From: Bacilli bacterium | GTDB lineage: Bacteria; Bacillota; Bacilli; Alicyclobacillales; SLC66 | Length of the DNA: 32,814 bases | Reading direction: 5' to 3' | NCBI GenBank assembly: GCA_013044175.1 | Contig: JABEUY010000028.1 | Span: forward strand, 1-32,814 | Shown here: positions 18,101-24,224 of the stretch, piece by piece | Numbering within the stretch: position 1 is the stretch's first letter | How the letters are laid out: each line of letters opens with the position of its first letter | Notes under the pieces: model-generated | What the model saw: the letters and a program-made list of their open reading frames with translations, nothing else | Databases searched by the model: none | Told to the model about the DNA's origin: nothing | Program-made: the position numbers and the translations under genes

Positions 18101-19651
18101 TATATTTATACGTGGGGTTATCTTGGAATTGAACTTTCAGCTTGCGCTTATTTACATAACTATAGCTATCAACAAGAAGATCCTTTACTCGATGATAAAT
18201 TCCACAAAGTCATCAAAAAAAGTCCTGTCTATTCTGGCGACGATGTCGTTTCCTTAGCTGAATTTTTGCAAAAAAAATTAGCGAAAGGGCAAGGCATGGA
18301 CGTTCTCAAAGAAATCGAGCAAAGTCATTTTCGACCCAGCAAAAAATTAATGGATCATATTGGGCAAACAATCAAAGGAAATTCCTCTTATATCCTGCTT
18401 GATGAACAACTTATCGCCTATGATCGTATCTTTGCTGCAGCGAGAGATGGCTATCATCAAAAAAACAAGCGTATGATCATCATCCGTGGTGGACCTGGCA
18501 CTGGCAAATCAGTCATAGCCTTAAACGTAATGGCTGATCTGTTGCTTAAAGGCTATAACGCGCATTATGCGACAGGATCTCGCGCGTTTACTGAATCTTT
18601 GCGAAAGACCATAGGGACGCGAAGTCAGGCGCAAATCAAATACTTCAATTCCTACACAGAAGCCATGAATGAAGAGATCGATGTACTTTTATGTGATGAA
18701 TCACACCGTATTCGTATCAGTAGTGCCAACCGCTTCACCAAAAAAGAAGATCGCTCCAAAGAAGCACAAATCGATGAATTACTTAAAGCCAGTAAAGTTT
18801 CTGTATTTTTTATCGATGATCGGCAAATCGTTCGTCCTAACGAAATCGGGTCCGTGGCCTATCTTAAAGAAGCAGCCCATCGATTTCAAGCGACCGTTGA
18901 GGAGTACGAACTCGATGCGCAATTTCGTTGTAATGGTTCTTCCGACTACATCAATTGGATCAATAACACGCTTGGATTGGAACAAAATGCGAATGTACTT
19001 TGGAAAACCAGTGACTCTTCCTTTGATTTTCGCATCATGGCGTCTCCGCAAGCGGTGGAAGAAGAGATCGCAAAACGTATTGAGGAAGGTTTTACGGGTA
19101 GAATTACGGCTGGCTTTTGTTGGCCATGGTCAGATCCGGATGAGCATGGTCAATTGATCGAAGACGTCGTCATCAATGATTATCGCCGCCCATAGAATGC
19201 GAAACCTGATGCAAGAAAACTTGGTAAAGGTATCCCTAAAGCCATGCATTGGGCACAAGATTCCAATGGATTTGGCCAAATTGGTTGTATTTACACGGCA
19301 CAAGGCTTTGAATTCGATTATGTCGGTGTCTTTATTGGTCAAGATTTACACTATGATTTTGCCCAAAATCACTTCATCGGACAACCACAGTCATCATTTG
19401 ATTCTGTAGTCAAACGCGCGAAAGGGCAATTTACCGATCTTGTCCTCAATATTTATCGTGTGCTACTTTCCCGTGGGATGAAAGGTTGTTATGTATACTT
19501 TCTCGATGAAGAGACGCGCAAATTTTTTCAAAGTCGAATGAGTCCTTCCCTCGATACTACTTACAAAGAAAACGAGGAAGGCAGCGAAAGAATTCAATAT
19601 GTCGCAGAAAAGTTTGAAGATATTCCCGATTTTTTTGATGAGAAAAAATAA
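18101..19651 (+). pseudogene. decayed DUF2075 (SF1 helicase-like) gene: 5' truncated and amber-interrupted
   Basis: One reading frame runs from just after TGA at 18098 to 19651, broken only by TAG at 19193. The visible protein starts within a conserved region (ELSACAYLHNYSY) and has no proper start codon, so roughly 200 N-terminal residues of the usual protein are gone. Next come the Walker A motif IIIRGGPGTGKSVIA, Walker B VLLCDESHR and a DAQFRCNGS motif. After the TAG come NAKPDARKLGKGIPKA and IYTAQGFEFDYVGV, typical of the Schlafen-group-3-like helicase domain. At the TAG the family normally has Trp (RPWNAK), so TGG to TAG is the likely change. Such proteins are often linked to nuclease or defence modules. 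No partner is seen here. Expression of a functional product is unlikely. Confidence 0.85.
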
Positions 19652-20499: not shown

Positions 20500-21825
20500 A
20501 TGTCCCGTTTGTCTTTACCACAACCCGCGCGCCAGATTTTCGCCATCGCCATCCCTGCGATCGGTGAATCCTACTTGCAAAATCTTCTTGGCGTGGTCGA
20601 TACGTTTTTTATCGCTCATATCGGTCTTACGGCGATTGATGCCGTGGGGATCACAAATGTCTATAGCATGACGTTTCTTGGCGTTTTCGCCGCTGTGGCC
20701 AGTGCTTTATCGGTATACCTCGCACGCGCTTATGGGGCGAAGGATTCTGATCGAGGACATGCCGTCTTACGCCAAGGGCTTTTACTCGCTTTACTCACAG
20801 GAAGCGTGACGGGTCTTTTGGCCTTGCTTTTCGCCCGTCCCTTGCTCGCCTTACTAGGTGCACAAGGAAATCTCCTTGGCATCGCATTACCTTACTTTAT
20901 GATTGTGCTCGGATTATCGCCGATCGTCGCGCTATTCACCGCACAAGCTGCCGCCTTTCGCGCGCTTGGCGATACGAAAACACCACTTCGCATCAGTTTA
21001 GAAATGAATATTTTTCATGTCATCGCCGATTATTTTCTGATCTTTGGCATCGGGTCTTTTCACGGGCTTGGGTTACAAGGCGCCGCCATCGCGATGATTC
21101 TCGCGCGCGCGTATGCGTTTCTTCGATTAACGAGCAAAGCCCACGCAATTCCCACATTACGCTTTTCATTTCGACAAAAAGCGCCGCAACAGGACGCTTT
21201 GCTTCGCACGATGACCGCCTTTGCGGTTCCTGCGGCTCTAGAGCGTCTTTCCATGCGACTGGGTCAAGTCGTCTATTTTGGCCTGATCGTTCGCATGGGT
21301 GTTGACATCTATGCGACACACACGATCGCAGGTTCCCTCACGGCGTTTAGTTCAACGATCGGCAATGGATTTGCGGTAGCCACCACCGCGATGATCGGTC
21401 AAGCGATCGGCGCAAAAAATACCCAACAAGCATCAGCCTATCGACGCTATGCCTATTGGGAAGCAGCCATCCTGATGACACTCGTCGCGATCCTGCTCTA
21501 TGTAAGCAGTGCGTGGTTAGGTCACTTTTTTACCCCCCATAAAGATGTCATTCAACTGCTAGGGATCATTTTATTGATTGACGTTTTCTCACAACCGTTT
21601 CTCGCTTCCGTCCTCATCGATACCGCTGCGATTCAAGCGACAGGAAATAGCCGTTATCCGATGATCACAACCATGATCGGCATATGGGGCGTACGCACGT
21701 TTGGCGTCTACCTGTTTGCCTGGCAACTACACTTTGGTCTTCCTGCTGTTTGGGTATGCATCGGACTCGATAACGCGTTACGAACGCTGCTCTACGCCCG
21801 TTATCGTAACAGGTCAAAAATCTAG
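20500..21825 (+). CDS. MATE family efflux transporter
   Basis: A 441-residue multidrug and toxin extrusion family protein with about 12 helices in two homologous halves. The first half has the family pattern IAIPAIGESYLQNLLGVVDTFF and VYLARAYGAKD. The loop with QAAAFRALGDTKTPL, found in both halves of MATE proteins, is seen near residue 150, and TAAIQATGNSRYPM is its counterpart near residue 380. The family exports cationic compounds using Na+ or H+ gradients; the substrate is unknown. ATG at 20500 follows AAGGA by 7 bases. A mosaic, partly deleted copy of this gene lies at 22660-22880, so the locus has been duplicated. No U-tract terminator was found after the stop. Confidence 0.9.
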   Translation: MSRLSLPQPARQIFAIAIPAIGESYLQNLLGVVDTFFIAHIGLTAIDAVGITNVYSMTFLGVFAAVASALSVYLARAYGAKDSDRGHAVLRQGLLLALLTGSVTGLLALLFARPLLALLGAQGNLLGIALPYFMIVLGLSPIVALFTAQAAAFRALGDTKTPLRISLEMNIFHVIADYFLIFGIGSFHGLGLQGAAIAMILARAYAFLRLTSKAHAIPTLRFSFRQKAPQQDALLRTMTAFAVPAALERLSMRLGQVVYFGLIVRMGVDIYATHTIAGSLTAFSSTIGNGFAVATTAMIGQAIGAKNTQQASAYRRYAYWEAAILMTLVAILLYVSSAWLGHFFTPHKDVIQLLGIILLIDVFSQPFLASVLIDTAAIQATGNSRYPMITTMIGIWGVRTFGVYLFAWQLHFGLPAVWVCIGLDNALRTLLYARYRNRSKI

Positions 21826-22128
21826 GCATCATCTCTTCATCCCAATTCGAATCAGTTACTCCCCAGCGAATACTATTTACGCTTTGGACCAAATGAAGAG
21901 TCTTTATATGATACGACCGTTCATTCATTATTATCACGTACCTTGTTTTGCAAGCTACTAGCTTCTATATTGTATAAAAAGGTAAAATTATAAATACCTA
22001 TTCGAATCTTCTTTCCAGTAGAGAGGCGACGCATCTTCTTATTTATTCTTATACTGGTATACGATTACGAGCCTTCCTGCCAAGCGTGGGAAAGCCTTTT
22101 GGTGCCCGAACCAATTAGTATTACGTCA
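21826..22128. other. gene-free stretch between the MATE gene and hicA
   Basis: About 300 bases, AT-rich around 21960-22000. I see no coding frame with a ribosome site, no terminator with a T tract and no repeat. Confidence 0.4.
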
Positions 22129-22356
22129 CTAGACACCTAACCATTCAAGGATCGCATCGACGGTTAGGGCGGATTGTCGAAGAATTGAGTGTAACGTGCC
22201 AGGGGCAAGTTCTCGATGCATTGGTATAATCACAGTGCGTCCATCGAAATGACGCATTTTGAGATGACTGCCTTTCTGACTGACCGTAAAAAAACCAAAA
22301 TGCGATAAGCAAGATACCATTTGATGTCCGGATAAAACCGGCGCACGAGGGCTCAT
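22129..22356 (-). CDS. hicA: HicA-family toxin (mRNA interferase)
   Basis: A 75-residue HicA toxin of type II toxin-antitoxin systems, with a double-stranded-RNA-binding-like fold. The motif order is clear: LSGHQMVSCLSHFGF, then SQKGSHLKMRH, whose His is the catalytic residue, RTVIIPMHRELAPGTL, and SILRQSALTVDAILEWL. It is intact and of normal length. The ATG at 22356 overlaps the hicB stop by one base (TAATG), so the two are translationally coupled. The order hicB then hicA is found in part of the family. HicA cleaves mRNA when freed from HicB. Confidence 0.9.
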   Translation of the reverse strand: MSPRAPVLSGHQMVSCLSHFGFFTVSQKGSHLKMRHFDGRTVIIPMHRELAPGTLHSILRQSALTVDAILEWLGV

Positions 22357-22553
22357 TATACGTTAACCTCGACGGGTGCAATGATGGGTGCCATGCCTGT
22401 AGGCACATCGTGATCTTCAAAATAAAGTTCAAGTGCTTCTTGCAGGTTACTCATAGCGCTTTCTAAAGTTTCACCTTGGCTAGTCACTTCGACTTCAAGA
22501 CAACGTGCAACAAACCATAATCCTTCACGCGTAATAGCCGATGTTAAGCGCAT
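22356..22553 (-). CDS. hicB: HicB-family antitoxin
   Basis: A 65-residue HicB-like protein with the partial RNase H fold: MRLTSAITREGLWFVARCLEVEVTSQG and then ESAMSNLQEALELYF. It lacks the extra C-terminal DNA-binding domain of long HicB proteins, so operator binding may be weak or absent. ATG at 22553 follows GGGGG by about 8 bases, and the upstream frame extension has no support. It neutralises HicA. The pair lies on the opposite strand between the MATE gene and its decayed copy. A possible promoter (TTCACT, 18 bases, TACACT) precedes it. Confidence 0.85.
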   Translation of the reverse strand: MRLTSAITREGLWFVARCLEVEVTSQGETLESAMSNLQEALELYFEDHDVPTGMAPIIAPVEVNV

Positions 22554-22659
22554 GCCGCTACCCCCTAATCCAATCGTGCTTTTAGTGTACCACGTTAAAA
22601 CTAATCGAGTGAAGATGATCCAATACCCAAGCAACGTAAATCTCTTTCTTTAGGGAGAG

Positions 22660-22926
22660 GCGAAGGATCCTGAACGAGGATATGCCGTCTTACGCCAAGG
22701 GCTTTTGCTCGCAGGATGCGTGACAGGTCTTTTGGCCTTGCTTTTCGCCGCACAAGCTGCCGCCTTTCGCACGTTTGGCGTCTACCTGTTTGCCTGGCAA
22801 CTACACTTTGGTCTTCCTGCTGTTTGGGTATGTATCGGGCTCGATAACGCGTTACGAACGCTGCTCTACGCCCGTTATCGAAAGCAGAAAAAAAATCGGG
22901 ATGGTCAATTTTTTAACCCAACTTGA
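22660..22926 (+). pseudogene. mosaic remnant of the MATE gene with three in-frame deletions
   Basis: Three blocks match the MATE gene at high identity in the same order. 22660-22749 matches 20737-20835, with 9 bases missing inside. 22750-22770 matches 20941-20961. 22771-22880 matches 21697-21806, with about two differences in 110 bases. The missing pieces are 9, 105 and 735 bases, all multiples of three, so one reading frame (GLLALLFAAQAAAFRTFGVY...) runs through all blocks to a stop at 22924-22926. No ATG or good ribosome site exists, and an in-frame TAG at 22651 precedes it. It overlaps the 3' end of the convergent membrane protein gene. Probably a recent duplicate that decayed by deletion between short similar sequences. 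Confidence 0.85.
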
Positions 22927-23501
22927 AGAAGAAGTTGTCCTTGACGCAATGTCAATTGTTTCACATAACGACCAAGTAACCATGTTCGAATGGCGGTAGA
23001 CAAAAGAACAATACCGAGGATCCCTTGCATCAGAGCATTACTCATTGTGAAATAAGAAATGGCAGGCATACTATGATGAATATGAATCCATGTAGTGATG
23101 TCCATACTAAAAATGCCGATCGCCAATAAAGCCATGACGCCTCCGAAAACGCGGTTCAATCCACCTGTAACATCTTCACGGATCACTTGCCATTCGCCTG
23201 CAAATGGTTCCTTCTCAAATCGTACGATCTTACTTTGTTGATCATATCGAATCGCTATCCTACCAACTTTCGAACTTTTCATCGATCGGTTCAGTTGCAA
23301 AAATAAAAGAATAACGACAATAACACCGAAATAAGCGTCGGACCACCACCAAGTACTCGAAGATAACGCTGATTTTTGCCATTCATACGTTTGAAGCGAA
23401 AGCCATCCGATCACCAAGATACCAAGACTAATCAAAAGGCCTCGTCGCTGCGTTTTCGTCATCATCGATACGAGGTTACCTTGTTTCATCGTATCATTCA
23501 T
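22905..23501 (-). CDS. membrane protein of unknown function
   Basis: A 198-residue protein with about four membrane helices: roughly residues 20-38, 58-70, 115-135 and 150-170. A basic N-terminus carries MTKTQRRG, and between the two helix pairs lies a soluble stretch (RIAIRYDQQSKIVRFEKEPF) that could be a small beta domain. I do not recognise the family. ATG at 23501 follows GAGGGA by about 6 bases, and the promoter at 23545-23573 is strong. It diverges from the SigY-like operon and shares its promoter region, so it may be co-regulated or part of the same stress response. Its last codons overlap the end of the MATE remnant on the other strand. Confidence 0.7.
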   Translation of the reverse strand: MNDTMKQGNLVSMMTKTQRRGLLISLGILVIGWLSLQTYEWQKSALSSSTWWWSDAYFGVIVVILLFLQLNRSMKSSKVGRIAIRYDQQSKIVRFEKEPFAGEWQVIREDVTGGLNRVFGGVMALLAIGIFSMDITTWIHIHHSMPAISYFTMSNALMQGILGIVLLSTAIRTWLLGRYVKQLTLRQGQLLLQVGLKN

Positions 23502-23544
23502 TTTTTATCCCTCATGAAAAATGACATTGATTTCTTATATACTT

Positions 23545-23573
23545 AGAATATGCTACTCAAAAACAGGTGTCAA
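23545..23573 (-). promoter_or_regulatory. consensus sigma-A promoter of the membrane protein gene
   Basis: On the minus strand a perfect TTGACA (23568-23573) is separated by 17 bases from TATTCT (23545-23550). The -35 overlaps a CAACGTTG palindrome (23571-23578) shared with the divergent side. Confidence 0.75.
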
Positions 23574-23577
23574 CGTT

Positions 23578-23599
23578 GAACTTTTCAGCCGTCTGCGTC
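23578..23599 (+). promoter_or_regulatory. possible ECF-type promoter of the sigma factor operon
   Basis: GAAC (23578-23581) and CGTC (23596-23599) resemble ECF -35 and -10 cores, as in autoregulated sigY promoters. The 14-base spacing is shorter than the usual 16, so this is tentative. Confidence 0.3.
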
Positions 23600-23651
23600 G
23601 TATTATCTACATCCATCACAACGAAAGCATCCAGTAAGGCGGTTAGCAGAC

Positions 23652-24224
23652 ATGGAAGAACACGAACAGATAGCTAAAGCGCAAAAGGGCGATCAAAGCG
23701 CACTGGCTGAACTTTTACAGGCGCACTATCTTTTCGTCTTCAAATATCTCGTTCAACTTACCTTACAGCGCCAGCTCGCTGAAGATCTGACGCAAGAGAC
23801 GATGGTACGAGCTATCCAACACATCAAGCGATATCAAGCGACCAAGAGTCGCTTCTCATCGTGGTTGATCACGATCGCTACGCGCCTTTATCTTGACGAG
23901 AAGCGAAAGAGAAAGCGTGAACAGGACTACGTTATCAACGCGGATGCTCTCTCAGCAAACGCTTCGCGCTTATTACTTTGGGAACTCGAAAAGCAACAAA
24001 GTCAGTGGCTAACGATGATGGAAGCGTTAGCGAAATTAACGGACGACCAACGAACTGCGATCCTCTTACAGCATTATTATGGCTATGCTTTGCAAGAGAT
24101 TGCCACGATGATGCAGATTCCCTTAGGCACGGTCAAATCCAGAGTCCACTATGGCATGGAACAAATCAGAAAGGAGTGGGAACAGGATGAAAAGAGGGCA
24201 AAAAACATCGATATCAACGCCTGA
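23652..24224 (+). CDS. ECF RNA polymerase sigma factor, SigY-like
   Basis: A 190-residue extracytoplasmic-function sigma factor. Region 2 is seen in LLQAHYLFVFKYLVQLTLQRQLAEDLTQETMVRAI (about residues 22-56) and the following SRFSSWLITIATRLYLDEKRK (core binding and -10 recognition). Region 4 lies in LLQHYYGYALQEIATMMQIPLGTVKSRVHYGMEQI (about 140-174), a helix-turn-helix for the -35. The closest pattern I know is Bacillus SigY, supported by the next two genes resembling YxlC and YxlD. ATG at 23652 follows AAGGCGG by about 10 bases. Its stop lies within the next gene, so translation is coupled. Activity is probably held down by the downstream membrane proteins. Confidence 0.85.
   Translation: MEEHEQIAKAQKGDQSALAELLQAHYLFVFKYLVQLTLQRQLAEDLTQETMVRAIQHIKRYQATKSRFSSWLITIATRLYLDEKRKRKREQDYVINADALSANASRLLLWELEKQQSQWLTMMEALAKLTDDQRTAILLQHYYGYALQEIATMMQIPLGTVKSRVHYGMEQIRKEWEQDEKRAKNIDINA

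Follow-up and report, generated by a model that had tools for sequence, protein, structure and literature searches.

A probable remnant of a second MATE exporter gene, joined to a broken insertion-sequence end, in a draft genome of a Bacilli bacterium

Remnants of transporter genes that arose by duplication or acquisition are a familiar kind of bacterial pseudogene. Here, we analyzed such a candidate, a short stretch of DNA that lies downstream of an intact gene of the MATE family of exporters and resembles it in pieces, with an open frame running through all of them. A search for literature on remnants of this kind gave no match by title or by the opening of the abstract among the matches listed. 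Taken alone, the remnant matters little, as it has the features of an ordinary gene remnant.

The window, i.e., the whole stretch of DNA that was analyzed, comprises bases 1-32,814 of one contig from a draft genome of 2.54 Mb (156 contigs, 91.57% complete). It was compared with an order-level sample of 59 genomes including its own, the other 58 of which all lie outside the genus of the window, while MATE orthologues were sought in a family-level sample of 17 other genomes. The coordinates of the features discussed below are collected in Table 1.

Table 1. Features at the MATE locus, in window coordinates. Copy 1 is the intact MATE gene; G003 is a genome of another genus.
Feature	Position	Strand	Basis or remark
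MATE-family exporter gene, intact (copy 1), 441 aa	20500-21825	+	Pfam MatE and NCBIfam TIGR00797
hicBA-bearing stretch common to G003, between copy 1 and the remnant	22013-22617		
Predicted hicA-type toxin gene	22129-22356	-	Pfam HicA_toxin, E 7.2e-16; no NCBIfam match
Predicted hicB-like antitoxin gene; overlaps the start of hicA	22356-22553	-	Pfam DUF7387; adjacency to hicA
IS200/IS605-type element end, truncated, fused to the remnant	22616-22658		Similarity runs over 22616-22660
Open frame across all joins, 90 codons and a stop, without ATG; probably not a gene	22654-22926	+	
Remnant block A	22659-22712	+	Copy 1 20736-20789
Remnant block B	22713-22749	+	Copy 1 20799-20835, after the 9-base loss
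Remnant block C	22750-22769	+	Copy 1 20941-20960, after the 105-base loss
Remnant block D	22770-22884	+	Copy 1 21696-21810, after the 735-base loss
Convergent ORF, uncharacterized, 198 aa	22905-23501	-	Overlaps the open frame, 3' end to 3' end

The product of copy 1 matched the Pfam MatE domain with an E value of 3.5e-44 and the NCBIfam model TIGR00797 with 216.5 bits, the cut-off being 147.4. Of the 17 family-level genomes, four contained a full-length orthologue with 59-64% amino acid identity (E 1e-30), and one contained a distant relative with 27% identity at the same threshold. A plasmid search returned only two MATE genes, both from Alicyclobacillus (65% and 67%), and a scan of genome contigs with the MATE protein gave a single locus at 23% identity. 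Neither of the genes that flank the locus in the window, on the upstream side an Mntp-like gene and on the downstream side the convergent ORF, was found on the contigs bearing the four orthologues, although in these drafts adjacency across contig ends is possible; synteny is therefore silent on which of the two MATE copies is older. The convergent ORF itself showed no Pfam match to E 0.1 and no NCBIfam match to E 0.01, and two of the 17 family-level genomes contained weak relatives of it (25-27% identity). Elsewhere in the window (18266-19651), an in-frame TAG at 19193-19195 interrupts a gene resembling a Schlafen group 3 helicase, which matched Pfam SLFN-g3_helicase with an E value of 6.3e-53; beyond the TAG, the same frame continues to 19651.

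A repeat search placed the beginning of a second, partial MATE copy at 22659. Compared base by base with copy 1, this sequence resolved into four collinear blocks at offsets of 1923, 1914, 1809 and 1074, separated by losses of 9, 105 and 735 bases that all fall in one codon phase. This agrees with the preliminary description, which had reported three losses, each a multiple of three, and one frame crossing all joins. The switch into block D fits any point within 22767-22770. With the switch points set for the fewest mismatches, 216 of the 226 bases of the remnant (22659-22884) were identical to copy 1, leaving 10 differences (95.6% identity). Its 5' part and 849 internal bases are missing, so that about 75 of the 441 codons are kept. 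The remnant thus combines a clear likeness to an intact gene with the loss of large parts of it, as a pseudogene does, and copy 1 is its source or its sister. The preliminary description had also called the event recent; the near-identity stands, while the recency is relative only, as 5 synonymous and 4 non-synonymous codon changes separate the two copies over these 226 bases.

The three residues that correspond to the 9-base gap are kept in all four full-length orthologues. The gap is therefore a deletion in the remnant, and the opposite reading, an insertion in copy 1, was rejected. We also looked for further MATE pieces in 21826-22658 and 22885-23700 and found none (best E value 0.47). Dispersal of the remnant through the genome was rejected as well, since of 20 places only the remnant and three segments of copy 1 had E values below 0.3. 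A difference in age between the two sides of the last join was likewise not seen: 6 of 111 bases differed to its left and 4 of 115 to its right (p 0.53).

Outside the genome, the two DNA matches of the remnant both lay within intact MATE orthologues. Among the other 58 order-level genomes, a DNA search at E 1e-5 detected no mosaic copy; all of them belong to other genera, so that a young gene or intermediate forms would escape this comparison. The exact pattern of joins was not found in viral contigs.

The preliminary description had suggested deletion by short homology at the last join. The comparison supports this and extends it, as each of the three joins falls within a short similar stretch: 8 of 9 bases are alike at the 9-base join (TTTACTCGC / TTTACTCAC), 8 of 10 at the 105-base join (GCTTTTCGCC / GCTATTCACC), where the longest exact run is three bases, and 11 of 13 at the 735-base join (CGCGCGCTTGGCG / CGCACGTTTGGCG). 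Among random join points in the gene (20,000 draws per join), 0.4%, 1.0% and 0.16%, respectively, scored as high. A stricter control, which kept the deletion length and took all positions, gave scores as high at 22 of 1317, 52 of 1221 and 20 of 591 positions (1.7%, 4.3% and 3.4%). The joins are less remarkable under this same-length control, which also marks the 105-base join as the weakest.

Three losses that all keep the frame had been put at about once in 27 by chance, a value that does not allow for the tendency of repeats within coding sequences to share a codon phase. Of the exact repeats in the MATE gene that span 7 bases or more, 59 of 92 (0.64) were in phase; the corresponding figures were 528 of 954 (0.55) for 13 other ORFs in the window and 264 of 849 (0.31) for 20 shuffles of the MATE gene. 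In the 13 ORFs, the share in phase was 55%, 62% and 68% when the minimum repeat length was set to 7, 8 and 9 bases, respectively; for the MATE gene, repeats of at least 9 bases (4 of 8 in phase) are too few to weigh. Pairs of 10-base stretches in the MATE gene with at least 8 matches, the degree of similarity seen at the joins, were in phase in 163 of 317 cases (0.51). Cubed, the share of 0.64 gives 0.26 (0.13 to 0.33 for cut-offs from 6 to 9 bases), and the share of 0.51 gives 0.14. The expected frequency of three in-frame losses thus lies between about 1 in 4, from the exact repeats of 7 bases or more, and 1 in 7, from the pairs with at least 8 matches in 10. Since repeats of at least 7-9 bases in the 13 ORFs lie mostly in codon phase, a set of deletions whose lengths are all divisible by three says little for selection if each deletion runs between short repeats.

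The persistence of the open frame calls for no selection either. A random substitution in the remnant has a chance of about 4.9% of creating a stop codon, so that ten substitutions leave the frame open with a probability of ~0.60. The frame is open because similar stretches in coding DNA are mostly in codon phase and because the substitutions are too few for a stop to be expected. Neither the in-frame losses nor the open frame need selection.

Two further features of the locus are absent from the preliminary description, namely a hicBA stretch between the MATE copies and a join at the 5' end of the remnant itself. The hicBA stretch is shared with G003, with 568 of 606 aligned positions identical (93.7%), and the alignment stops at 22617. 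Its two genes are a predicted toxin-antitoxin pair, as a gene with a HicA toxin domain stands beside a HicB-like gene; the latter matched DUF7387 (E 1.5e-6, above the cut-off) and, below the cut-off, HicB_lk_antitox (E 0.03), with no NCBIfam match. In G003, the corresponding stretch (L029 3109-3713) adjoins a SIR2-like gene (L029 1746-3005), which resembles a defence-type neighbourhood. Beside hicA lies an apparently non-coding stretch of ~100 bases (window 22008-22104; L036 3060-3156; L029 3599-3713) that is 86-88% identical to G003 and 71% identical to G002, where it is found near a Phd/YefM antitoxin gene. It was detected in 3 of the 59 order genomes and stands beside toxin-antitoxin genes in three genera. 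Block D and its counterpart in copy 1 form direct repeats of 115 bases with 4 differences that flank hicBA, and recombination between them would remove it.

From the end of this stretch, 45 bases were 87% and 84% identical to the tnpA-side ends of two elements in G003. The ORFs that adjoin both of those ends matched Y1_Tnp and OrfB_IS605, so that the window holds a sequence like the ends of elements with a Y1 transposase. From its place beside tnpA and from general knowledge of the IS200/IS605 family, we take it to be the left end. The two G003 ends fold into hairpins of -11.9 and -12.9 kcal/mol (z -3.2 and -3.7), as compared with -2.1 kcal/mol (z +1.5) for the window, where MATE sequence replaces the second arm and the terminal hairpin is incomplete. 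Similarity to an element end, with the second hairpin arm replaced, indicates that a broken insertion-sequence end borders the remnant on the 5' side. The tnpA protein of G003 had no match in the genome of the window, in a search that ran without a positive control and shows nothing.

Taken together, these data make it very probable that the region of the open frame is an untranslated remnant of a second MATE copy, and of the two options first proposed for it, a new mini-membrane protein in the making or debris, the latter is the better one. The second copy would once have stood downstream of the intact one in the same direction, and we favor a local duplication as its origin over import from a sister species. 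The hicBA genes and an insertion sequence would then have arrived, after which a join to the IS200/IS605-type end would have removed the interior of the insertion sequence together with the 5' part of the MATE copy. Finally, the 9, 105 and 735 internal bases would have been lost between the short similar stretches by slippage or misalignment, for which no long homology is needed.

Import is a variant within the reading as an untranslated remnant and is already covered by the confidence placed in it. Here, a MATE piece of a sister species would have come with the hicBA and insertion-sequence stretch and then decayed in the same way, which we consider possible but less likely than a local duplication. 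The hicBA stretch and the remnant show a similar divergence, from G003 and from copy 1, respectively; the insertion-sequence end joins the two, and copy 1 and the remnant part abruptly in their last codons, all of which would suit a joint arrival. However, G003 contains no match to the remnant (E 0.001) or to the MATE protein (E 1e-30), and a tandem duplicate is the simplest account of a sequence that lies next to copy 1 and shares its direction.

An assembly artefact, in which reads from a strain variant or another organism were mis-joined, is very improbable. A fragmented and incomplete draft and a sequence that is a partial repeat of copy 1 are circumstances in which such errors could arise, but both MATE copies lie on one contig, and the differences between them are scattered substitutions. 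Moreover, the joins sit at short similarities, as real deletions do, and the neighbouring hicBA stretch was found independently in G003.

The open frame was also considered as a nascent gene. Bounded by a TAG just upstream (22651-22653) and by its own stop (22924-22926), it runs through 90 codons and all three internal joins, and residues 17-35 of its translation have a hydrophobicity (mean 2.11) that would suffice for a membrane helix. Among the codons that differ from copy 1, the synonymous share exceeds the neutral expectation of 0.30; the excess is not significant (one-sided p 0.095, two-sided p 0.14) but leans towards constraint, and part of this lean may belong to copy 1's own branch. 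On the other hand, the frame contains no in-frame ATG. Its in-frame TTG and GTG codons (22705, 22720, 22732 and 22738) would be candidate starts but are all part of what was once transporter sequence, and the GAGG-preceded ATG at 22682 is out of frame. A scan for sigma-70-type consensus promoters found no site on the + strand of 21912-23514; with 8 sites in total, close to the 6.1 in shuffles, the scan says little and is compatible with expression from the frame. The translation had no Pfam match to E 0.1 and no NCBIfam match to E 0.01, while copy 1 matches both, and it lacks the MatE domains that extend along the whole of a functional MATE exporter. With no ATG, no domain match and no need for selection, it is highly unlikely that translation from a non-ATG codon yields a small membrane protein of MATE helices, shortened but still in frame; such a protein, if real, would mark an early stage of gene birth through internal deletion, aided by the codon phase of short repeats.

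Overall, the probable remnant compares closely with bacterial transporter pseudogenes, with which it shares truncation, the lack of an ATG start, deletions at short similarities and insertion-sequence debris alongside; it differs from them in that the frame happens to remain open over all joins. In relation to MATE-family exporters defined by MatE and TIGR00797, its four blocks derive from such a gene, but about 75 of the 441 codons remain, and neither Pfam nor NCBIfam recognizes it. As to IS200/IS605 ends, the 45 bases in the window are like those of Y1_Tnp/OrfB_IS605 elements in a related genus, whereas MATE sequence stands where the interior of the element belongs, and the hairpin is cut off.
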